Origin: Candidatus Omnitrophota bacterium
GTDB taxonomy: Bacteria; CG03
DNA: 36,959 bases
Reading direction: 5' to 3'
Assembly (NCBI GenBank): GCA_013791745.1
Contig: VMTH01000161.1
Span: 1 to 36,959, forward strand
Numbering within the stretch: the first letter of the stretch is position 1; the number at the start of each line of letters is the position of its first letter. Under the pieces are notes generated by a model. It had not been told where the DNA came from, did not search any database, and saw nothing but the letters and a program-made list of their open reading frames with translations. The translations under genes and the position numbers were made by a program. Positions 9,972-36,959 of the stretch are shown piece by piece.

Positions 9972-9995
9972 TGTGAAATGGTGCCAGGGGTTGGA

Positions 9996-10153
9996 CCGCC
10001 TTCGCGGCGGACATTCTGCCCCGCACCGGCGGATGCTGAAAGCGCTTCGTCTGCCGCTGAAAGTCTGCCGTGGCGGATGGCGGATGCGCCGTGGCGTGAA
10101 ACATTTCGATACTTATCGCGCCTGAGTGATTTATCAGATGACATATTCAGGCG
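9996..10153 (-). repeat. Palindromic repeat cluster between rnfE and rnfA
   Basis: This spacer holds a hairpin at 9996-10010 (ccgcc/ggcgg arms). A GC-rich element at 10056-10100 closely matches one inside the receptor gene at 16399-16443. An inverted repeat also pairs cgcctga at 10119-10125 with tcaggcg at 10147-10153. An open frame spans the spacer on the minus strand, but it lacks the look of a real gene: its sequence is explained by the repeat and it has no recognisable domain. The cluster separates two genes that are normally adjacent in this operon. Confidence 0.6.
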
Positions 10154-10169
10154 GAACAAATTCTTTTTT

Positions 10170-10763
10170 TTATCGTTTTTCATTTTTTGATATTTTAATG
10201 GCCTGATGCGCTCCGACCAGAAGGCCCAGTGTTATAAAAGCCCCCGCCGGCAGTATCATAACAAGGAACTGCGGGAAGAATCCGGGCACGGCCTTGGCCC
10301 CTAAAAAAGTGCCGGAACCCAGGATCTCCCTGATCGCGCCCATGACGCACAGAACCAGAGTAAAACCCGTTCCCATACCCAGCGCGTCCAGCATGGATCG
10401 GACAAGGCCGTGACGCGAAGCAAAAGCTTCAGCGCGGCCGAGTATTATGCAGTTGACGACGATGAGAGGAATGAAGGGACCAAGCTCACGGCTCATTTCA
10501 AAGAAATTGGCTTTGAGAAAAATATCGGCGATGGTAACGAATGTCGCGATCACCACTATGTAAGAGGCTATCCTCACCTGATGGGGCACGGCTTTTCTTA
10601 TGAGTGAGATTATGACATTACTGAAGAAAAGCACGAATATAACGCTCAAGCCCATGGTGAGGGCATTGATAACATTCGTCGTCACCGCGAGCGTCGGGCA
10701 CAAACCGAGCAGATAACAGAGTATCGGGTTTTTCTCGAATATGCCTTTTAAAAAATCTTTCAT
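10170..10763 (-). CDS. rnfE: Rnf complex membrane subunit RnfE
   Basis: RnfE pairs with RnfA in the inner membrane to hold the intramembrane [2Fe-2S] cluster. The 197-residue protein has about six helices. It has the two conserved Cys-containing segments NPILCYLLGLCPTLAVTT and PLIVVNCIILGRAEAFA, both hallmarks of RnfE/NqrD. Its ATG overlaps the rnfG stop by one base (TGATG). The tail is charged and lysine-rich (KISKNEKR). RnfA and RnfE are homologous; this one is called RnfE from the GRAEAFA segment and from its position after rnfG, matching the usual rnfD-G-E-A-B order. Confidence 0.95.
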   Translation of the reverse strand: MKDFLKGIFEKNPILCYLLGLCPTLAVTTNVINALTMGLSVIFVLFFSNVIISLIRKAVPHQVRIASYIVVIATFVTIADIFLKANFFEMSRELGPFIPLIVVNCIILGRAEAFASRHGLVRSMLDALGMGTGFTLVLCVMGAIREILGSGTFLGAKAVPGFFPQFLVMILPAGAFITLGLLVGAHQAIKISKNEKR

Positions 10764-11287
10764 CAGCGGATCACCGCCTTCATTTTCATCATCTTTTCAT
10801 TTATCATTTTTACAACAGCGCGGGAAGATATGGTCGCTCCGGTGACGGCCTGTATGTCGTATTTTTCACGCGGAGCCGTCTTCACAATGCTGAACGGGGC
10901 ATTTTTCCCGTTAAACTGTTTTAAGAATTTATCTTTTGTCACTTCCGCGCCGAGCCCCGGGGTCTCCAGGCATTTCAGTATTATTATCCCCTTGATGCGA
11001 TCCATGTTTTTGCCCACGCCCACGACGGCCCTGATCTCGTCCTGAAAACCCATGATGGACGCCTCAAAGGCATATCCGGCCGAGCCGGCCTGCCAATATT
11101 CTTCACCGTCGAGCGAAAGAGCGCTTATCTCTTCTCCCGGAAAAAGCTCTTCAACGGCTTCTGTTTTAGCGCGTTTTTCATTTTCGTCAATCTTTTTTGA
11201 CGATTTTTCCCACACGAATGAGAGGATGAGGCCGCTGGCGAAACACAGGCAGAGAAGGAACAAACTTATTTTTACGATTTTTTTCAT
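10763..11287 (-). CDS. rnfG: Rnf complex FMN-binding subunit RnfG
   Basis: RnfG is anchored by one N-terminal helix (about 4-25) and carries a covalently bound FMN in an FMN-binding domain outside the cytoplasm. The flavinylation motif is visible as TGATISS near residue 149; the second Thr is the residue modified by ApbE in characterised homologues. The LKCLETPGLGAEVTKDKFLKQF segment is the conserved beta-strand/loop of the FMN-binding domain. At 174 residues it is slightly short for the family but complete. Its ATG overlaps the rnfD stop (ATGA) and its stop overlaps rnfE. No apbE flavin transferase is seen in the window. Confidence 0.94.
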   Translation of the reverse strand: MKKIVKISLFLLCLCFASGLILSFVWEKSSKKIDENEKRAKTEAVEELFPGEEISALSLDGEEYWQAGSAGYAFEASIMGFQDEIRAVVGVGKNMDRIKGIIILKCLETPGLGAEVTKDKFLKQFNGKNAPFSIVKTAPREKYDIQAVTGATISSRAVVKMINEKMMKMKAVIR

Positions 11288-12240
11288 CTATTCCTCTCCC
11301 TCTTTACGGAATTATTTTCGCCGAAGGACTCTTTCGCCGGAATTTTTTCAAGCAGCGGCGCGAGCGCGTTCATAATGAGCACGGAAAACATAACGCCTTC
11401 GGGGAAACCGCTGAAATATCTCAGGAGCATCGTGAAAAATCCGCAGCCGGCGCCGAAAATAACCCTCCCCCTGAAATTGGCCGGCATCGTCACCGGATCC
11501 GTAGCCATGAAAAAAGCCCCCAGCATCAGGCCGCCCGAAAATAAATGAAAAACAGGACTGCCGTAGGATTCGCCAGCGAAAAAATAAAACAAAGAGGAAA
11601 TAGACCCCACCGCCGCAAGGTAAAACAGCGGCACCCTGTAATCAATGATTTTTCGGATGAGAAGATATGCTCCCCCCAGCAGCAGAAGGACAGCGGATGT
11701 TTCGCCCACACTGCCCGGGCAGTTACCCATCAGGATCTTTCCGGTCTCCCATATTTCTCCCGAAAATTTCCATGCGCCCAGAGGCGTCGCCGTCGTGAGA
11801 GCATCCAGCGGGGATATCCAGGAGGTCATGGCGGCGGGAAAAGCGGCCATGAGAAAGGCCCTGCCGAGAAGCGCGGGATTGAAAATGTTCGCCCCCAGAC
11901 CGCCGTAAAAATGTTTGCCGAACACCATGCCGAAGATAATGCCGTACGCGGCGTAGGAAAGAGGTAGCGACGGGGGTAAAGTCATGGCGAAAAGAAGGCC
12001 TGACACAAGGGCGCTTCCGTCATTTATGAAAGTTTTTTTGCGTATCCTGATAAAGGCATATTCCGACGCGTAGGCGAAAAAAATAGAGACGGTATAAAGA
12101 AGAGCGGCTCTTTTGCCCCAAAGATAGAAGGAGTAGGCCATGGCCGGGGCGAGGGCGATAACAACATTCCGCATAACGGAGGGCACATCAGTAGCGGAAA
12201 AATCATGCGGTGAGAGCGATACTTTAAATTCTCTTTTCAT
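11284..12240 (-). CDS. rnfD: Rnf complex membrane subunit RnfD
   Basis: RnfD is a multi-span inner-membrane subunit with a covalently bound FMN and is thought to take part in ion translocation. The 318-residue protein begins with the family opening KVSLSPH. It contains FGKHFYGGLGANIFNPALLGRAF and the flavinylation motif SPLDALTTATPLGAW; the Thr in TTAT is the expected FMN site. Near the C-terminus are FFMATDPVTMP and SGFPEGVMFSVLIMNALAPL, both typical. The gene start overlaps the end of lgt by 17 bases. RnfC normally lies just upstream in rnf operons, but lgt is there instead. Confidence 0.95.
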   Translation of the reverse strand: MKREFKVSLSPHDFSATDVPSVMRNVVIALAPAMAYSFYLWGKRAALLYTVSIFFAYASEYAFIRIRKKTFINDGSALVSGLLFAMTLPPSLPLSYAAYGIIFGMVFGKHFYGGLGANIFNPALLGRAFLMAAFPAAMTSWISPLDALTTATPLGAWKFSGEIWETGKILMGNCPGSVGETSAVLLLLGGAYLLIRKIIDYRVPLFYLAAVGSISSLFYFFAGESYGSPVFHLFSGGLMLGAFFMATDPVTMPANFRGRVIFGAGCGFFTMLLRYFSGFPEGVMFSVLIMNALAPLLEKIPAKESFGENNSVKRERNR

Positions 12241-12988
12241 TTTTTGCCTTTTGAGACACAGCGGTCAGATAAAGCCCGGCTGATATCACGAGGATGATAG
12301 CAATAATCTGCATTATTGTTAAACCCGAAAAAGCGGTGATCGAGTCCCCTCTGATGAATTCCATGAAAAATCTTGTTATGCCGTAACCCGCCAGATAGGC
12401 CGCGCCGCGCAGGCCTGTTTTCTTCAGCGGCAGTCTGATTATAAGGAGAAAGAGCAGGAAATTGAGCAAACTCTCATAGATCTGGACGGGATGAAGGCCC
12501 GCGCCCAGCGGCGCCAGTGACGCGGGATCTGTGAAAGTGACGCCCGGCAGAGTCCCGCAGGAACTGCCGTAACAGCATCCGGCCAGAAAACAGCCAATCC
12601 TGCCTATGGCCTGGCCCAGGATCATGGGCGCGGCGAAATAATCGCAGAACTCGGCAAAAGGTATTTTTTCTTTCCGCGAAAAATAAAAGAGCGCCAGAAA
12701 ACCGCCGATGATCCCGCCTCCCACGGCGAGCCCCCCGTGCCAGACATAAAAAAATTCAAGGGGATTGTCCGCCAGAGCCCCGAAATCCCAGAAAACAAAA
12801 TGAAACAAACGCGCCATGACAAAACCGCAAAGCAGCGAATAAAAAACAATATCCTCAAGACGCCGCGCGGCAATACGGCCGGCGAATTCTTTTTTGAGCA
12901 CGAACCACGCCGCCACAACTGCGATAAAAACCATCAGCCCGTAAGAATGCAGCGTAACGGGACCTATGCTCAGTATGCGGGGAAACAC
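12224..12988 (-). CDS. lgt: Prolipoprotein diacylglyceryl transferase (Lgt)
   Basis: Lgt transfers diacylglycerol from phosphatidylglycerol to the lipobox cysteine of prolipoproteins, the first step of lipoprotein maturation in the inner membrane. The 254-residue, seven-helix protein has YVWHGGLAVGGGIIGG, the signature GRIGCFLAGCCYG with the essential Arg, then HPVQIYE and the C-terminal FFMEFIRGD. The start is GTG at 12988 with GGAG just upstream, giving the normal N-terminus (ILSIGPVTLHSYGLM). It heads the rnf operon and overlaps rnfD. A 14-codon ATG frame starting at 13014, only 6 bases after a -10 box, overlaps the lgt start out of frame and may couple or attenuate translation. Confidence 0.95.
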   Translation of the reverse strand: MFPRILSIGPVTLHSYGLMVFIAVVAAWFVLKKEFAGRIAARRLEDIVFYSLLCGFVMARLFHFVFWDFGALADNPLEFFYVWHGGLAVGGGIIGGFLALFYFSRKEKIPFAEFCDYFAAPMILGQAIGRIGCFLAGCCYGSSCGTLPGVTFTDPASLAPLGAGLHPVQIYESLLNFLLFLLIIRLPLKKTGLRGAAYLAGYGITRFFMEFIRGDSITAFSGLTIMQIIAIILVISAGLYLTAVSQKAKNEKRI

Positions 12989-13014
12989 AGGAGCTCCGGA
13001 AAAGATTTTTTCAT
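12970..13014 (-). other. Possible leaderless 14-codon leader frame upstream of lgt
   Basis: The frame encodes MKKSFPELLCFPAY and stop. Its ATG lies 6 bases downstream of a TATATT -10 box, the spacing expected for a leaderless mRNA, and the frame ends 19 bases inside lgt. It may be translated to load ribosomes onto lgt, or the ATG may be coincidental. There is no homology evidence. Confidence 0.3.
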
Positions 13015-13020
13015 GGATTT

Positions 13021-13030
13021 AATATAACAT
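13021..13030 (-). promoter_or_regulatory. Candidate promoter (-10) for the lgt-rnf operon
   Basis: On the minus strand TATATT (13026 to 13021) is preceded by TG plus one base, an extended -10 element. A -35 region of T-rich sequence 17 bases upstream is weak. It lies 32 bases from the lgt GTG and precedes the whole lgt-to-hisB gene run. Confidence 0.45.
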
Positions 13031-13184
13031 ATTCCCGCTCAATAAATAAAGCCTTAAACACGGGGGCAGGCTGATTTTTGTCTTGTAAAAACTGTCCGTC
13101 CCTTTTAGGCCCTGGCTACCGCAAAACCTCAGCATGCCAATTCAAAACCTGACTTCGAATTAGCAATTTAAAACCGGGAAGCTA

Positions 13185-13499
13185 TTATAAAAGCGAATCT
13201 ATTTTTGCCGTCAGCGCTTCTTTGGGGACAGCCCCTATAAGCTGGTCAACCAGTTCGCCGTTTTTGAAAAAACCTATAAAGGGTATGCTGCTGACACGGT
13301 ATTTCGCGGCCGTCTGGCCGGCTTCGTCAACATTGAGTTTACAGACCTTGACCCTGCCCTCATATTCACCCGAGACCTCTTCAACGACCGGAGCTATCAT
13401 CCTGCACGGGCCGCACCAGTCAGCGTAAAAATCCACCATAACCGGTATATCCGCTTTAACAACTTCCTGCTCAAAATTAGAATCATTCACAATGATCAT
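13185..13499 (-). CDS. trxA: Thioredoxin
   Basis: A small cytoplasmic disulfide reductase of 104 residues, normal for thioredoxin 1. The active site DFYADWCGPCR has Trp28-Cys29-Gly-Pro-Cys32, and the cis-proline loop is SSIPFIGFFKNG. The start is set at 13499 by a strong AGGAGGT seven bases upstream; a longer open frame (to 13574) merely reads through the leader. It stands 125 bases downstream of recR and 196 bases upstream of lgt, so it may be its own transcription unit. A downstream hairpin with a T-run is not obvious. Confidence 0.97.
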   Translation of the reverse strand: MIIVNDSNFEQEVVKADIPVMVDFYADWCGPCRMIAPVVEEVSGEYEGRVKVCKLNVDEAGQTAAKYRVSSIPFIGFFKNGELVDQLIGAVPKEALTAKIDSLL

Positions 13500-13624
13500 A
13501 ACTATTACCTCCTGATAGAATCCCCCAACCACATTATTTAACCCGATGCTGGTTTTGATGCTCTCTGAACACAAAAGGATTCAGCCGTTAAAGAACAGGA
13601 CGCGCGCTGAAACTCAAAACAGCC

Positions 13625-14230
13625 TTACTCAAAAGAGCGCCGGCCCTCCAGCGCTTCTTTCAGCGTGTGGGCATTGACATAGATTATCTCCGACCCCTCC
13701 GACAGGCCGTGGGCGGGATGACTGATCTTGATATCTCCAAAACGCCGGGCGATCTCGTTGTATATGTACCGGGCTGTGGCAATGCCTTTCCTGTTGAGAT
13801 TTGTCGCCAGTATCACTTCTTTTACCGCGCCCGATTCCAGTCTTTTAAAAAGAGACTCTATGTTTAAATTTTCCGGAAGGATTTTGTTGAGAGGATCTAT
13901 TCTGCCACCGAGTATGTGATACATCCCGTTAAAACCGGCGTCTTCAACCACAGACACATCCATCACTTCCTCAACAACGCAAATAATGGAAGTGTCTCTT
14001 TCCTTATCCGCGCATATATCGCAGACATCTTCAGATGAATAGTTGCCGCAGACAGAACAGACCCTGATCGATTCTTCTGCTTCCCTGAGTTCGTCAAGCA
14101 GTTTTTTTCTTGATTCGGGGGGAAGTTTTATAAAATCCGAGGCTAATTTGGCCGCGAATTTAGGGGTGACCGAGGGGAGCGCGTAAAAGGCCTCTTTAAG
14201 CCTTTCCACGCAGAAATAAAAATTACTCAT
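13625..14230 (-). CDS. recR: Recombination mediator protein RecR
   Basis: RecR works with RecO (and RecF) to load RecA on SSB-coated gapped DNA. The 201-residue protein has the zinc finger Cys58, Cys61, Cys70, Cys73. A Toprim domain follows, beginning ICVVEEVMDVSVVEDAG and continuing through YHILGGRIDPL and VILATNLNRKGIATARYI. The C-terminal Walker-like segment HPAHGLSEGSEIIYVNAHTL aligns with the usual ARGLPxGxELEYADxxTL. The N-terminal helix-hairpin-helix reads ALPSVTPKFAAKLA where most relatives have LPGIGxKSAxRLA, so this DNA-binding loop is divergent. It overlaps dnaX by 8 bases, the usual dnaX-recR pairing. recO is also present, at 18,200. Confidence 0.94.
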   Translation of the reverse strand: MSNFYFCVERLKEAFYALPSVTPKFAAKLASDFIKLPPESRKKLLDELREAEESIRVCSVCGNYSSEDVCDICADKERDTSIICVVEEVMDVSVVEDAGFNGMYHILGGRIDPLNKILPENLNIESLFKRLESGAVKEVILATNLNRKGIATARYIYNEIARRFGDIKISHPAHGLSEGSEIIYVNAHTLKEALEGRRSFE

Positions 14231-15749
14231 CCTCCCGGCCTTCCAGCTCGCCTCCGGCCAGCGTGTGCAGCTTGGCTATGATAGGCTCCTCTATTTCAAG
14301 CTGCTTGGCCTCTGTGATCTTTTCTTCCGGGGTGGCAGGATCTTCCTTTTCGTTCATGACAATGGTCACGTCTATGCTCATACCTTTGTGTCCCTTCGCG
14401 GCAAGCGCCTCTTCCATAACTTCGCTGTTGGCCAGCAGGCGTTTCGCGTGCACCTCGTTTTCGCCGGAAAAACGGCAGCAGAGTTTTCTGCCGTCAACGA
14501 TGATTTCCTCTGCAAAATCAAATATCTTTCCCGCAGGGCCACACTCTCCTTTCAGCAGCTTGACCAGATCCGCGGCGCTCTTGTCAGATGGGGGGAGAGA
14601 GACCGCCGGTTTAGTGGCAGCCGCCAGTGTTTTTACGCTCGTTGCCGCGGGAGATTCAGGATCCCCGCCGGAAGAGGTTGCCAGCTCTATAACTTTGCCT
14701 ATGGGCACAAAATCCGAGGTTATCTTATAAAAAGCCAGCTCCAGCAGAATTTTCGGATACTCTGACCATTTCATTTTCTGCTCGGCGGAGCACAGGCTTT
14801 CAAGCATCCAGTAAACACGGTCCGGATCTTTAAAGCCGTCACCGGCCCGGCCGCTCAAAAGCTCCGCCAGAACCCTGCGCAGGGCCGTTATGAGCTGCCT
14901 TGTGAACTGCTGAAGGCTGAAGCCCTTGCTGTAAATCTCGCCTACCAGCGCGAAGGCCGACTTTGTGTCGCCGGACGCTATAGCCGAAAGAGTTTCTTTT
15001 ATTTTCGCGCTTTCCACAAGACCGAGGATGAATTCCACATCTTCCCTTTCTATTGTTTTTCCTGAAGCGGAGGAGATAACCTGCTCAAGAATACTCTCGG
15101 CGTCTCTTATGGAGCCGCCCGCCTCCTCGCATATGGCTTCCAGAGCGCCGTCGGAAACCGGCACTTTTTCGCTGACGCATATTTTTTTGAGGACACCCAT
15201 CACCTCGGCCTGATTCACAAGAACGAATTTAAAATGCTGGCATCTCGAAAGAATCGTCACGGGAAGTTTTTCCGGCTCGGTTGTGGCAAGAACGAAAATG
15301 ATATAGGGCGGCGGCTCTTCCAGCGTTTTCAGGAACGCGTTAAAAGCGTCTTTTGTTATCTGATGCGCCTCGTCGATAACATAAACTTTGTAGCGCGATG
15401 ATGACGGGGCAAAAGCGGCGTTCTCGCGGAGCTCTCTTATATTCTCAATGCCCCTGTTGGAAGCCGCGTCTATCTCTATGATATCCATTGAATTCCCGGC
15501 CTGAATCGCTTTGCATGAAACGCATTTATTACAGGGTTCGCTCGAGGGATACTCCGCGCAGTTAACCGCCTTGGCGAGGATCCGCGCGGCGGTTGTCTTC
15601 CCCACTCCGCGGGGGCCGGAAAAAACATAGGCGTGCGCCAGCTTTTCTTTGATGATGGCGTTTCCGAGCGTCACCGTCACCTGCCCCTGGCCTATGATCT
15701 CAGAGAATTTCGCCGGACGGTATTTTCTCGCGATAACTAAATGTGCCAT
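14223..15749 (-). CDS. dnaX: DNA polymerase III subunit gamma/tau
   Basis: DnaX is the ATPase core of the clamp loader. The 508-residue protein has Walker A GPRGVGKT (45-52), a zinc module with Cys64, Cys73, Cys76 and Cys79, and Walker B DEAH (126-129). The sensor 1 region is ILSRCQHFKF and the sensor 2 region is GGSIRDAESILEQ. The C-terminal third is linker-like and then acidic, and is shorter than in E. coli tau. I did not find an obvious programmed frameshift slippery site followed by a hairpin, but did not search exhaustively. A consensus-like promoter lies immediately upstream with the ATG only 5 bases from the -10, so the mRNA is probably leaderless. Confidence 0.96.
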   Translation of the reverse strand: MAHLVIARKYRPAKFSEIIGQGQVTVTLGNAIIKEKLAHAYVFSGPRGVGKTTAARILAKAVNCAEYPSSEPCNKCVSCKAIQAGNSMDIIEIDAASNRGIENIRELRENAAFAPSSSRYKVYVIDEAHQITKDAFNAFLKTLEEPPPYIIFVLATTEPEKLPVTILSRCQHFKFVLVNQAEVMGVLKKICVSEKVPVSDGALEAICEEAGGSIRDAESILEQVISSASGKTIEREDVEFILGLVESAKIKETLSAIASGDTKSAFALVGEIYSKGFSLQQFTRQLITALRRVLAELLSGRAGDGFKDPDRVYWMLESLCSAEQKMKWSEYPKILLELAFYKITSDFVPIGKVIELATSSGGDPESPAATSVKTLAAATKPAVSLPPSDKSAADLVKLLKGECGPAGKIFDFAEEIIVDGRKLCCRFSGENEVHAKRLLANSEVMEEALAAKGHKGMSIDVTIVMNEKEDPATPEEKITEAKQLEIEEPIIAKLHTLAGGELEGREDE

Positions 15750-15754
15750 GATGT

Positions 15755-15783
15755 ATTCTAATTTAATTGAAAAACGATGTCAA
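15755..15783 (-). promoter_or_regulatory. Sigma-70-type promoter of dnaX-recR, probably leaderless
   Basis: On the minus strand a perfect -35 TTGACA (15783 to 15778) is separated by 17 bases from TAGAAT (15760 to 15755). The dnaX ATG begins 5 bases later, so transcription should start at or very near the A of ATG. There is no Shine-Dalgarno sequence. Confidence 0.8.
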
Positions 15784-15785
15784 AA

Positions 15786-16166
15786 TCATCTTTCGATTTT
15801 CCTCATTTCCTCCGGCAGACGCATAGGCTTCATATCCTTCCCGACGCACACAAGCAGCGTTTTGCCTTTGACAATGCTTCTGAGCGACGCTTTTTCCTTT
15901 ATTTCATATAACAGCTCTATTGATGCACCCGTCGATTTGCCGGCTTGCACTTCAACAATGACAGTCTCTCCGTAGCGCGCGGGGCTTATATAATCTATCT
16001 CGGCGCGGCGGACAAGAAAAAAGATACCGCGCTCCATGAGCTCACCGATGTCGGCTCCGCGCTCCCGCAGAAACTCGGTGCGCGCCCGCTCAAAGTAAGT
16101 GAGATAATTCGCGTAGTAAACAACCCCGCCGCAGTCCGTATCCTGATAATAGATCTTAATTTCCAT
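15786..16166 (-). CDS. ybgC: YbgC-like acyl-CoA thioesterase
   Basis: A single hotdog-fold domain of 126 residues. The signature YYQDTDCGGVVYYANY, with the catalytic Asp of the TDxGG motif (Asp11), is followed by YFERARTEFL, which is diagnostic for the YbgC/4-hydroxybenzoyl-CoA thioesterase family. In proteobacteria ybgC sits with tol-pal; here it lies between the TonB receptor and dnaX. A GGAGAG sequence precedes the ATG. The substrate cannot be told from the sequence; acyl-CoA hydrolysis in phospholipid metabolism is the usual assignment. Confidence 0.9.
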   Translation of the reverse strand: MEIKIYYQDTDCGGVVYYANYLTYFERARTEFLRERGADIGELMERGIFFLVRRAEIDYISPARYGETVIVEVQAGKSTGASIELLYEIKEKASLRSIVKGKTLLVCVGKDMKPMRLPEEMRKIER

Positions 16167-16202
16167 AAATGCTCTCCAAAGTATAAAAAATAGCCCGTGA
16201 AA

Positions 16203-17999
16203 TTACAAACCGGCAGTGATACCCACTCCCGCCCATCTGCCGTGAGCGGGCACGGGCGGCTGAGACTGGAATTTCCTGTTGAACAAATTAGCCGCTTCCA
16301 GAAACAGGCTGTAATTGCCGAATCTCTTTTCTATTCTGGCGTCCATCACAAAATATCCCGCCTCAGAGCGCCTCTTCAAATAAGAGCCCGACACCGCGGC
16401 TGAAAGTCCGCCGTGGCGGGCTGAAAGTGCGCCGGCGCGTGATGAAGCTCTTGGAAACAGATGCCCTTTGAGCCGAAGAGAAAATTTATGAGCGGGATAC
16501 CTTAACGCGTATTTTGAGTCATAAATACCTCCGGGCGCGGATGCCTTGAGAAAAGTGTAGCCGGCCTGGCCGCCTATCGCGCGGAAAGAGAAAAAATATT
16601 TCAAACGCGCGCCCTTCGTGTCAAATTCCGGGATATTCCACGCATGGAAAGTGTCCGTTGAATTGAATTTCACCCAGTCTATGATATCTCTGCCGGAACG
16701 CAGAAAAACCGCCGCCGAAAAAGCCCCGGCCGTCATGCCCGTTTCGTAATATCTGCTTTTTTCAAGATGAAGAGCCGTGTCGCCCTCATTCGCCGGATCC
16801 CAATAATGCAATTCCGTATAAGAGGGCGGCCTGAAAGCCGAAGCGTAAAGAATATGTACGCGCAAGCGGTTCAGCGTGATTTCTTCTCCCATGGAAATCG
16901 AGTTTATCTTATCCCAGCGGCCGCTGCGGTCCGTCCTCAAATTAAGATTGAATTCGGATATCCCTTTTTTACGGCGGAAGCGCTCAAAAAATGACACCGC
17001 GCGCGTATGCTCGTTTTTCAGAACATTGCTTGTTATTTCTTCCCGCGAATACTCCGCCCCACACGAAAAAGAGTTATAACCTGAAACGAAATGCAAAACA
17101 GCTTCATTCCCACTCCGTATATTCTGATGGCTGTTGCCGTACAAATTCCCGCCCCACAAATATTCGAATTTATCCCCGTGCCGTCTGACAAATGTTTTAT
17201 TGCTCAGAAAAAACGACCGGCTGAACGGAACCCTGAATTCAAGATTGGCGAATTCAAGGCAGGTCTCCTCCCTTTCACCCGAAGTGCCGGTGCCGTAAAA
17301 ATGATACGCCCCGAAATCCTTGTCCTGCCTTCCGGCGCTCAGGCTCACGCTGTTTTTCCCGGGTAAAAACACCCTGCCGAAATAGTCGTTCACGGCAAAA
17401 TCCCTCCCGGGGAAATAGCCGGGAGATCTCTTTCTTGAGGCCGAAAGCAGCATATTCCCGCCCTTCATCGGCGGCGAAAAACTTATCCTGCCGCTGAAAG
17501 TATTTTTTTCATAAAAAGCCAGCTCGGCGCCCACGGATTTTTTGTGCGATTTTTTGGTGATGATATTGACCGCTCCCGAAAAAGCTCCGGCGCCGTAAAC
17601 GGATGAGGCGGGGGCGGAAATTATCTCGATTCTCTCAATATCGTTTTTGGACACCGGTATATTCATCTGGTGATGTCCGGTCTGCAGATCGCTCATTCTC
17701 ACCCCGTCAAGGAGCACCAGAACCTGCTCAAAAGAACCGCCTGAAACAGAAAGGTCGTTCTGAACGCCGAAGCCTCCGCGCCCCCTGACGTCTATTCCGG
17801 CCGATAATCTCAAAACATCCTCCAGCGAATCGGCCGGCAGGAGCGCGAGATCTTCGGCTGTTATTATCTCACTGCCCGGGGAAAAGATCCGTTCACCGTA
17901 AACGACTATTTCCTCAATGTTTTCGCTGCCGGAGGAAGCACTGTTCAAAAAACACAGCGCGCAGCCAAACAAAATCACCGAAGCGGAAATTTTAAACAT
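16203..17999 (-). CDS. TonB-dependent outer-membrane receptor (BtuB-like)
   Basis: A gated outer-membrane beta-barrel that imports a scarce ligand using TonB energy. The start at 17999 gives a clean signal peptide (MFKISASVILFGCALCFLNS) after GAAGGAGG; the length is then 598 residues, close to BtuB. The probable TonB box is IEEIVVYGE right after the signal peptide. The plug domain follows, with VLRLSAGIDVRGRGG, VLVLLDGVRM and SVYGAGAFSGAVNIIT. The rest is 20-odd amphipathic strands, with the terminal strand GVGITAGL. Residues about 520-534 (ALSARHGGLSAAV) are encoded by a palindromic repeat that also occurs elsewhere in the window. The ligand is not inferable; cobalamin or siderophore are the usual possibilities. 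No TonB, ExbBD or ABC transporter genes are adjacent. Confidence 0.9.
   Translation of the reverse strand: MFKISASVILFGCALCFLNSASSGSENIEEIVVYGERIFSPGSEIITAEDLALLPADSLEDVLRLSAGIDVRGRGGFGVQNDLSVSGGSFEQVLVLLDGVRMSDLQTGHHQMNIPVSKNDIERIEIISAPASSVYGAGAFSGAVNIITKKSHKKSVGAELAFYEKNTFSGRISFSPPMKGGNMLLSASRKRSPGYFPGRDFAVNDYFGRVFLPGKNSVSLSAGRQDKDFGAYHFYGTGTSGEREETCLEFANLEFRVPFSRSFFLSNKTFVRRHGDKFEYLWGGNLYGNSHQNIRSGNEAVLHFVSGYNSFSCGAEYSREEITSNVLKNEHTRAVSFFERFRRKKGISEFNLNLRTDRSGRWDKINSISMGEEITLNRLRVHILYASAFRPPSYTELHYWDPANEGDTALHLEKSRYYETGMTAGAFSAAVFLRSGRDIIDWVKFNSTDTFHAWNIPEFDTKGARLKYFFSFRAIGGQAGYTFLKASAPGGIYDSKYALRYPAHKFSLRLKGHLFPRASSRAGALSARHGGLSAAVSGSYLKRRSEAGYFVMDARIEKRFGNYSLFLEAANLFNRKFQSQPPVPAHGRWAGVGITAGL
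16399..16443 (-). repeat. Palindromic repeat copy inside the TonB receptor gene
   Basis: About 45 bases align with 10056-10100: both share gctgaaagt, then ccgtggcgg, and a second g(t/c)gcgcc block with the same 8-base spacing. The reading frame is kept, and the encoded peptide (LSARHGGLSAA) resembles the one read from the other copy (SAIRHGRLSAA). Confidence 0.6.
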
Positions 18000-18103
18000 C
18001 CGGCATGCGCCTCCTTCACGAAACAACATTATAATGAGCGGCGGACGGTGTCCGACGGGGCTCTATGAGCAAGGGGTTTGCATAGTGCCCAAAGCTGAGC
18101 CTT

Positions 18104-18130
18104 GCGAAGTCCGCCCGTGGCGGGCGAATG
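18104..18130. repeat. Third copy of the palindromic repeat, upstream of the TonB receptor
   Basis: The core agtccgcccgtggcggg matches the core of the copies at 10056 and 16399 apart from one extra base. It lies in the 200-base gap between recO and the receptor gene, which also holds other short inverted repeats and no credible gene. Confidence 0.5.
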
Positions 18131-35947: not shown

Positions 35948-36197
35948 TCGACCGTATGAACAAGACTGAATAATACGGTCAAGTCGTTCGGTCTATTAGT
36001 ATGGCTCAGCTCATTACCTCCTCACTCAAACCGAAGTCTAAACTCGTGGGTAATGGTCTCAATGCCCGAGGGCATCTCAACCGGCGATTACTCGCCTTAC
36101 ACCTGCCACCTATCAAACTGGTAGTCTTCCAGTGACCTTATTGCCTTGATCCTTAACCCGAAGGCTAAAGACCTGGACAGGGAAATCTTATCTTGGA

Positions 36198-36233
<36 letters not shown>

Positions 36234-36468
36234 TTGCCAAACGTAGCTACCCAGCGATGCTCCTGGCGGAACAACTGGTACACCAGAGGTTTGTCCATCT
36301 CGGTCCTCTCGTACTAGAGACAGCTCTCCTCAAATTTCCTACGCCCGTACCAGATAGGGACCGTACTGTCTCACGACGTACTGAACCCAGCTCACGTACC
36401 ACTTTAATTGGCGAACAGCCAAACGCTTGGGAGCTTCTCCACCCCCGCGCTGTGATGAGCCGACATCG

Positions 36469-36763
36469 CTATTGTGTTTTCTCTTATTTCTAAGAGTATC
36501 GGACTATATCTTCATCCCGCCTTTCGCGGGAGTTGACGTTTTATGGAAAATAAATTTTCCATCTGCTCTTTCCCTATCAAATTATAGAGCAAGTCTCTAC
36601 GGGGTGAAGCACATAAATTTTATGTGCTCACTTCCCACGGTATTTCCTTTTGTTTTTCTTTCACAAAACAATTAAGGGTTTACCGTTATAAGTCAATTTT
36701 TTCTTGCAAAATTTTTGCAAGTAACAGGTAACAGCATTACTGCTGATGCACCCCGATATGTTA
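36469..36763 (-). ncRNA. Group I intron in 23S rRNA at position 2500
   Basis: A 295-nt insertion splits 23S between E. coli U2500 and C2501. The 5' exon end GCACCU pairs with the internal guide GGGUGC (P1, with the required U-G at the splice site). The 3' exon CGAUG pairs with UAUCG just before the guide (P10). The intron ends in G. Core elements: the P4 arms ACGGUA/UACCGU, a P6 stem (GCACAUAAA/UUUAUGUGC), P7 GACU with the S-element AAGAUAUAGUCC, and a P9 hairpin CUCUUA-GAAA-UAAGAG. There is no homing endonuclease ORF, and it is too short to hold one. The boundaries are firm because P1, P10 and the exon match to E. coli agree. Confidence 0.93.
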
Positions 36764-36814
36764 AGGTGCCGAACAGAGCCGTTGATGTGAACTCGCGGGC
36801 TCTACTAGCCTGTT

Positions 36815-36959
36815 CAATCACTGAACTTTAGCTATAGCTAAAGTGAAAGTTATGATTAGACTATATCTTCATCCACCGAGCTTTCGCACAGCGAAAGCGA
36901 AGGTCAAGAAGAAGCGTAGCTTCTTCGAGCCAACTTCGGTGGAGACGGCGAGTTCACAT
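36815..36959 (-). ncRNA. Group I intron in 23S rRNA at position 2449, 3' part
   Basis: The 3' exon resumes at AACAGGCT (E. coli A2450) and the insertion ends in G, so the site is after 2449. The visible 145 nt contain the S-element AAGAUAUAGUCU (P7 3' strand). Before it is a large P8 arm closed by CCACCGA/UCGGUGG, which carries two sub-hairpins. After it is a strong P9 stem (ACUUUAGCU/AGCUAAAGU). The P1-P6 half and the P7 5' strand lie beyond the window edge, so an internal ORF cannot be ruled out. Confidence 0.88.

Follow-up and report, generated by a model that had tools for sequence, protein, structure and literature searches.

The Rickettsia palindromic elements measure 105–150 bp and have terminal inverted repeats (PMC2229807), some of their families (RPE-4/6 type) bear a CGTC tag at one end (PMC3733652), and reports place about half of the R. 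conorii elements in frame in genes (PMC10969869). Repetitive extragenic palindromes (REPs) are 20–40 bp long, carry GTAG or CGTC tags and are mostly intergenic, intragenic copies being known in O. terrae, Thauera and R. conorii (PMC3733652). Miniature inverted-repeat transposable elements (MITEs) exceed 100 bp and have terminal inverted repeats and target duplications (PMC2229807). Here we describe a repeat unit of 21 bp, with copies in and between genes of a 36,959-nucleotide stretch of DNA (the window), which is contig 161 of a 2.0-Mb metagenome-assembled genome (MAG); the host genus, four related uncultured bacteria, is placed in the phylum Elusimicrobiota. We conclude that the unit very probably constitutes a family of non-autonomous mobile elements that inserts precisely, often in frame within genes, and whose copies would be translated and near-neutral.

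In being palindromic, in frame in many unrelated genes and also intergenic, the family behaves like the Rickettsia palindromic elements and their Wolbachia equivalents. The analogy drawn in a first-pass annotation of this DNA stands, but membership does not: the unit has 21 bp and a single short hairpin, as against 105–150 bp with inverted repeats, it bears no CGTC tag, and it occurs in another phylum, the Elusimicrobiota. With the REPs moved by RAYT transposases it shares 20–40 bp hairpins, arrays and intragenic copies; it differs from them in having neither GTAG (absent from the consensus and its complement) nor CGTC, in an 8-nt head, in the lack of copies beside Y1 genes, in the large share of copies within genes and in the precise 21-bp empty sites documented below. 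Like such MITEs as ERIC and Correia/NEMIS the unit is non-autonomous and makes some in-frame fusions, but it does not have the terminal inverted repeats and target duplication of a classical MITE. The small dispersed repeats of cyanobacteria are likewise mobile units, of about 21–27 bp, that nest in other repeats; coding insertions are not known as a hallmark of them. The unit represents a separate, much smaller family than the Rickettsia elements, with a behaviour common to them and to REPs.

Across the four genomes of the genus that were compared (G000, G002, G003 and G004, all draft MAGs) the conserved block reads GCTGAAAGTCCGCCGTGGCGG, then A or G; the edges of the unit, GCTGAAAG at one end and GGCGG at the other, are sharp, and the flanks of the copies are unrelated. 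The unpaired 8-nt head (GCTGAAAG) is followed by a short hairpin with a 5-bp stem. In 51 distinct units 95.3% of the hairpin cells were paired, compared with 85.8% in shuffles and at most 62.7% when the hairpin was slid, a statistic that kinship among copies may inflate, and column pair 10–21 varies between CG, GU, GC and AU, a compensatory change that preserves the hairpin. Five of the six reading frames are free of stops, the peptide readings being AESPPWR, LKVRRGG, RHGGLSA, ATADFQ and PPRRTFS, and the sixth holds TGA. Since 21 nt make seven codons, most insertions into a gene add seven residues with the frame kept. Copies occur in tandem, and also nested inside or adjoining earlier units.

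The copies have moved precisely, with a target preference and a hairpin. At G003 C85:4158 the sequence ATGAGTGATATGAA[GCTGAAAGCCCGTCGTGGCGG]GCTGATAAAC stands against ATGAGTGATATGAAGCTTATAA in G000, a difference of 21 bp, and four more single-unit sites (G003 C57, G003 C72, G000 C17 and G000 C43) show the same exact difference. A Gfo/Idh/MocA-type gene (G003 C78) has received 69 bp (24+24+21) at TTAATGGAA^GGCGTGGAG (GGAA^GGCG) and outside this insert is continuous with G000 in the aligned stretch; a response regulator gene (G003 C53) carries 51 bp more than its empty orthologue. To the Pth of G002 exactly 21 bp have been added, giving GLGNP-[LRHGGLS]-ASYNGTRHN (element-spanning residues LRHGGLSASYNGTR), an insert that neither the Pth of five other genomes nor the solved Pths in the PDB possess; in the predicted model the added residues fall in a loop of low confidence that follows strand 1 and precedes helix 1. 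Comparison with orthologues and family likewise places a copy within LpxD. No target duplication was seen at the precise insertion sites. G is found at –3 relative to the unit in 57 of 73 copies (17.8 expected, p=7e-22), GAA precedes the unit in 15 copies (1.7 expected), and G stands four bases 3′ of it in 51 copies.

These sites bear on two other explanations. If the length changes reflected local slippage or recombination between neighbouring repeats, and not movement of the unit, recurrent gain and loss would be found where tandem arrays or a prior related repeat exist, as is the case at C20, C43 and C17; yet sites previously free of the repeat have gained one unit or the 69-bp block (Pth, the Gfo/Idh/MocA-type gene, a RibF-like gene and G003 C85), and we consider slippage very unlikely. 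That the heptapeptide is a functional motif, produced by convergence or selection and not by insertion of DNA, might be proposed from AESPPWR being the commonest reading among internal copies. However, the same DNA is read in several frames into unrelated peptides, is also intergenic, and is missing from empty sites that differ by exactly 21 bp, which leaves this proposal next to no probability.

Among 70 non-redundant copies, a codon-usage test scored 19 as clearly internal to genes and 14 as lying at gene ends; the test is strict, in that the copies in Pth, LpxD, the TonB-dependent receptor described below and the Gfo gene came out as ‘unclear’ though families or orthologues confirm them. 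Under the same codon rule 69% of random positions are internal, so that genes contain fewer copies than expected, by a factor of about two or somewhat more, without being closed to them. Copies are present in about 28 open frames with recognized families, including IF-2, a DnaA-type ATPase, Pth, ProS (where the alignment is ambiguous at the element), L25, a RimM-type PRC protein (no PDB match), LpxD, a radical-SAM methylthiotransferase-like protein, EndoV, a ThiM-like kinase, HcyBio, a tyrosine recombinase, a histidine kinase, response regulators, a CvpA-like protein, AllH, a DksA/TraR-like zinc finger protein and others; a few copies are at N-termini with an uncertain start codon. In G002 ribosomal protein L25 ends, at its C-terminus, in three or four diverged tandem units (AEGAPRRAESAPKRAEGAQGRA; L194:373-1137), and its gene is directly upstream of the unit-bearing pth.

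No gene copy among the 70 uses the sixth frame in its stop-bearing form, and the sole well-supported copy in the TGA phase, in the methylthiotransferase-like (MtaB-like) gene of G004 C163, has TGC instead. Mitochondrial bypassing elements are skipped during translation, and a hairpin within coding sequence would suit a similar fate for the unit. Skipping would lift the constraint to remain stop-free, and the constraint on frame observed here (lengths in multiples of three, five stop-free frames, avoidance of the stop-bearing one with TGC for TGA) accordingly counts against bypassing, which we regard as exceedingly unlikely. We suggest that translation of the copies yields short loops, linkers or terminal tails that the proteins tolerate, that through this tolerance selection would remove fewer of them than of ordinary insertions, and that the elements may be selfish or near-neutral, not adaptive.

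The window contains seven matches to the unit against 1.4 in shuffles, and its genome 24 core matches at up to three mismatches against 3 for the reversed pattern. With up to two mismatches there were 12, 4, 19 and 18 matches in the four genomes of the genus, with zero in all reversed controls and zero in three other genera of the family; a second pattern gave 18, 6, 23 and 18 near copies in the four genomes, and none were present in the twelve further genomes of the phylum that were searched or in the reversed controls. When an exact 19-mer was searched in 84,980 genomes, only single hits fell outside the genus (Auribacterota, Nitrospina, Candidatus Sulfopaludibacter and Betaproteobacteria), about the chance level for 257 Gb, and these were not taken as spread. 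The named records with exact matches were Elusimicrobia bacterium HGW-Elusimicrobia-2 (assigned to the phylum Elusimicrobiota), Elusimicrobia bacterium CG03_land 50_18 and ‘bacterium isolate 01_128’, at coordinates that agree with copies in G003, G002 and G004. A loose core pattern, CCGCCNNTGGCGG, was dropped and narrowed, its matches being mostly ordinary GC-rich coding sequence. Among the genomes examined, the family is confined to one Elusimicrobiota genus.

Within the window (Table 1), the first-pass annotation had recognized repeat copies at 10056 and 16399 and a shorter one at 18104. The first two are real, 10053–10099 and 16396–16442 aligning at 77% over 47 bp; the third proved instead to be a sister repeat beside a match to a longer dispersed repeat. 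Similar peptides had been proposed for both copies: the receptor copy is in frame, but the rnf copy is intergenic and its peptide only formal. The tandem units in the receptor lie opposite the gene strand and are read as ALSARHGGLSAA. Residues of the SSRAGALSARHGGLSA type surround residue 528 in the receptor and in its G003 orthologue, and a paralogue in the same genome (37% identity) lacks the segment, as do the other receptors aligned, in keeping with the in-frame insertion that had been claimed; G003, where the segment is conserved, also carries the repeat. The predicted structure of the receptor had a predicted local distance difference test (pLDDT) value of 28.5 and was not used. The expectation of further copies was borne out by about 20 in the genome, by the presence of the repeat in three sister species and by many in-frame copies inside genes across the four genomes.

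Table 1. Positions of the repeat units and associated features in the window
Feature	Position	Strand	Remarks
21-bp unit, consensus copy, in receptor gene	16399..16419	+	Gene on – strand, read RHGGLSA; exact core also in G003 orthologue
Second, diverged 21-bp unit in tandem	16420..16440	+	Both units = 42 bp / 14 residues
TonB-dependent receptor gene, 608 aa, Plug domain	16203..18029	–	Insertion near residue 528
21-bp unit between two Rnf-Nqr genes	10056..10076	+	Intergenic
Related 21-bp unit GCTGAAAGCGCTTCGTCTGCC	10035..10055	+	Directly before 10056 unit
110-bp composite of nested short palindromic units, rnf gap	9994..10103	+	Absent from orthologous gap in G003 and G002
Sister short repeat, different sub-family, GCGAAGTCCGCCCGTGGCGG / GCGAAGTCCGCCCGTGGCGGGC	18104..18126	+	Few copies found; also given as GCGAAGTCCGCCYGTGGCGG
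Degenerate match to longer dispersed repeat (about 130 bp)	18044..18115	+	Match to copy at G000:C43

In G003 and G002 the orthologous rnf gap reads GGGGTTGA-CTTTCGATACTTA, without the 110-bp block, and in one gene of G002 a unit similar to GCTGAAAGCGCTTCGTCTGCC adds 21 bp in frame. The composite landed within a dispersed repeat, GGTGCCAGKGGTTGAC...TTTCGATACTTA, which is found in at least 10 places (window about 9980–10125; L145, L172, L246). The dispersed repeat of about 130 bp, with ends GCTATCCG...CGGATAGC, has many copies in G000 and G003 (L136, L139, L247 and others) and often hosts short units. At the contig end the 23S rRNA gene (36062–36809, – strand) is interrupted, a group I intron-like match (36480–36773; E 2e-8, under the gathering score) splitting its large-subunit rRNA matches (36062–36552 and 36768–36809). 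Near 36858 lies a similar motif that may represent a second intron.

As to how the unit moves, a single-strand Y1/HUH transposase that would act in trans on the hairpin is our tentative candidate for the likeliest mobilizer, favoured since such enzymes insert beside a short fixed sequence without target duplication, as is seen for the unit. IS200/IS605-type transposition by the Y1 enzyme TnpA likewise involves no target duplication, a short fixed target beside the insertion and recognition of a hairpin, the role of Y1 for the unit being putative; unlike IS200/IS605 elements, the unit has neither paired end hairpins nor a linked tnpA. The window genome has one Y1_Tnp gene, encoding 321 aa with a Bac_DnaA_C tail, and this protein is common to G000, G003 and G004 (74–96% identical). 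Where the first-pass annotation had raised a REP-associated transposase, a Y1 transposase is present but linkage to the repeat was not found, and the Y1 gene was rejected as a REPtron, as no copies flank it. Ordinary REPs moved by a RAYT and spilling into genes would match the unit in size (20–40 bp), in the GC-rich hairpin, in the head-to-tail and nested arrays and in the presence of a Y1 transposase, and intragenic REPs have been reported in several species (PMC3733652). Considering the missing GTAG tag, the lack of copies flanking Y1 genes and the large share of copies in genes, where REPs are mostly intergenic, we hold this explanation to be rather unlikely.

Several observations weigh against the proposal of a precisely moving family served in trans by a Y1 enzyme. 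Zero unit copies lie within 1.5 kb of ten Y1 genes, and G002 carries the repeat without an orthologue of the 321-aa protein, having other Y1 genes. For the subclass to which Y1 proteins with a Bac_DnaA_C tail belong, terminal repeats of GGGG type have been reported (PMC6006769); given the GGGGACTGTCCCC repeats present here, the 321-aa protein may serve another family. The GGGGACTGTCCCC repeats flank ATTACGGACGAA...TCGTAG blocks as inverted repeats (L141, L147, L170, L204) and resemble those described at the termini of elements with such DnaA-tailed Y1 transposases. Further, all genomes are MAGs. The contigs G000:C83 and G004:C76, and also G000:C111 and G004:C232, are 100% identical over the 600 bases compared, which in MAGs assigned to different species suggests cross-binning or cross-contamination, and G004 is therefore sometimes a non-independent witness; support for the principal empty sites comes from G000 compared with G003 and from Pth in six genomes.

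A sister element of 30 bp, belonging to the same palindrome family, stands directly after ATG in genes beginning ATG AAA. The arrangement ATG-TTGAACAAAGNGAAATCCGCCTGCGGCGGA-AAA opens about eight unrelated genes, two of them also with orthologous copies in G002, and endows their proteins with a shared N-terminal tag, MLNK(E/A/V)KSACGGK or a close variant: GDP-mannose dehydratase, MTA phosphorylase, glutamate 5-kinase, HisB, a response regulator, an Ldh_2 dehydrogenase, a methyltransferase and an outer-membrane protein (L253, L254, L255, L256, L259, L162, L163, L287, L290, L295). One empty site is available, the response-regulator orthologue of G000, which reads GGGGAAATG-AAAAAAATACTT (ATG^AAAAAAATACTT), a separate G004 contig (C7) also being empty; the other cases rest on alignment of homologues, solved structures of GDP-mannose dehydratase, MTA phosphorylase and glutamate 5-kinase aligning only from about residue 10–14 on. 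From these sequences, the chances appear evenly balanced that the sister element targets start codons and so installs a common N-terminus; it may either target them or merely survive at them.

Finally, the 21-bp family adds one more phylum to the few bacteria whose proteins are lengthened by mobile palindromes; its unit is far shorter than the Rickettsia elements, and clean empty sites are preserved in sister species. For an insertion element, a length of 21 nt together with five stop-free frames offers a simple means of living in genes. Short repeats in metagenome-derived genes can be true insertions and not assembly errors, and the copies described here supply a naturally occurring collection of essential enzymes with seven residues inserted in loops, as in Pth between GLGNP and TRHN.

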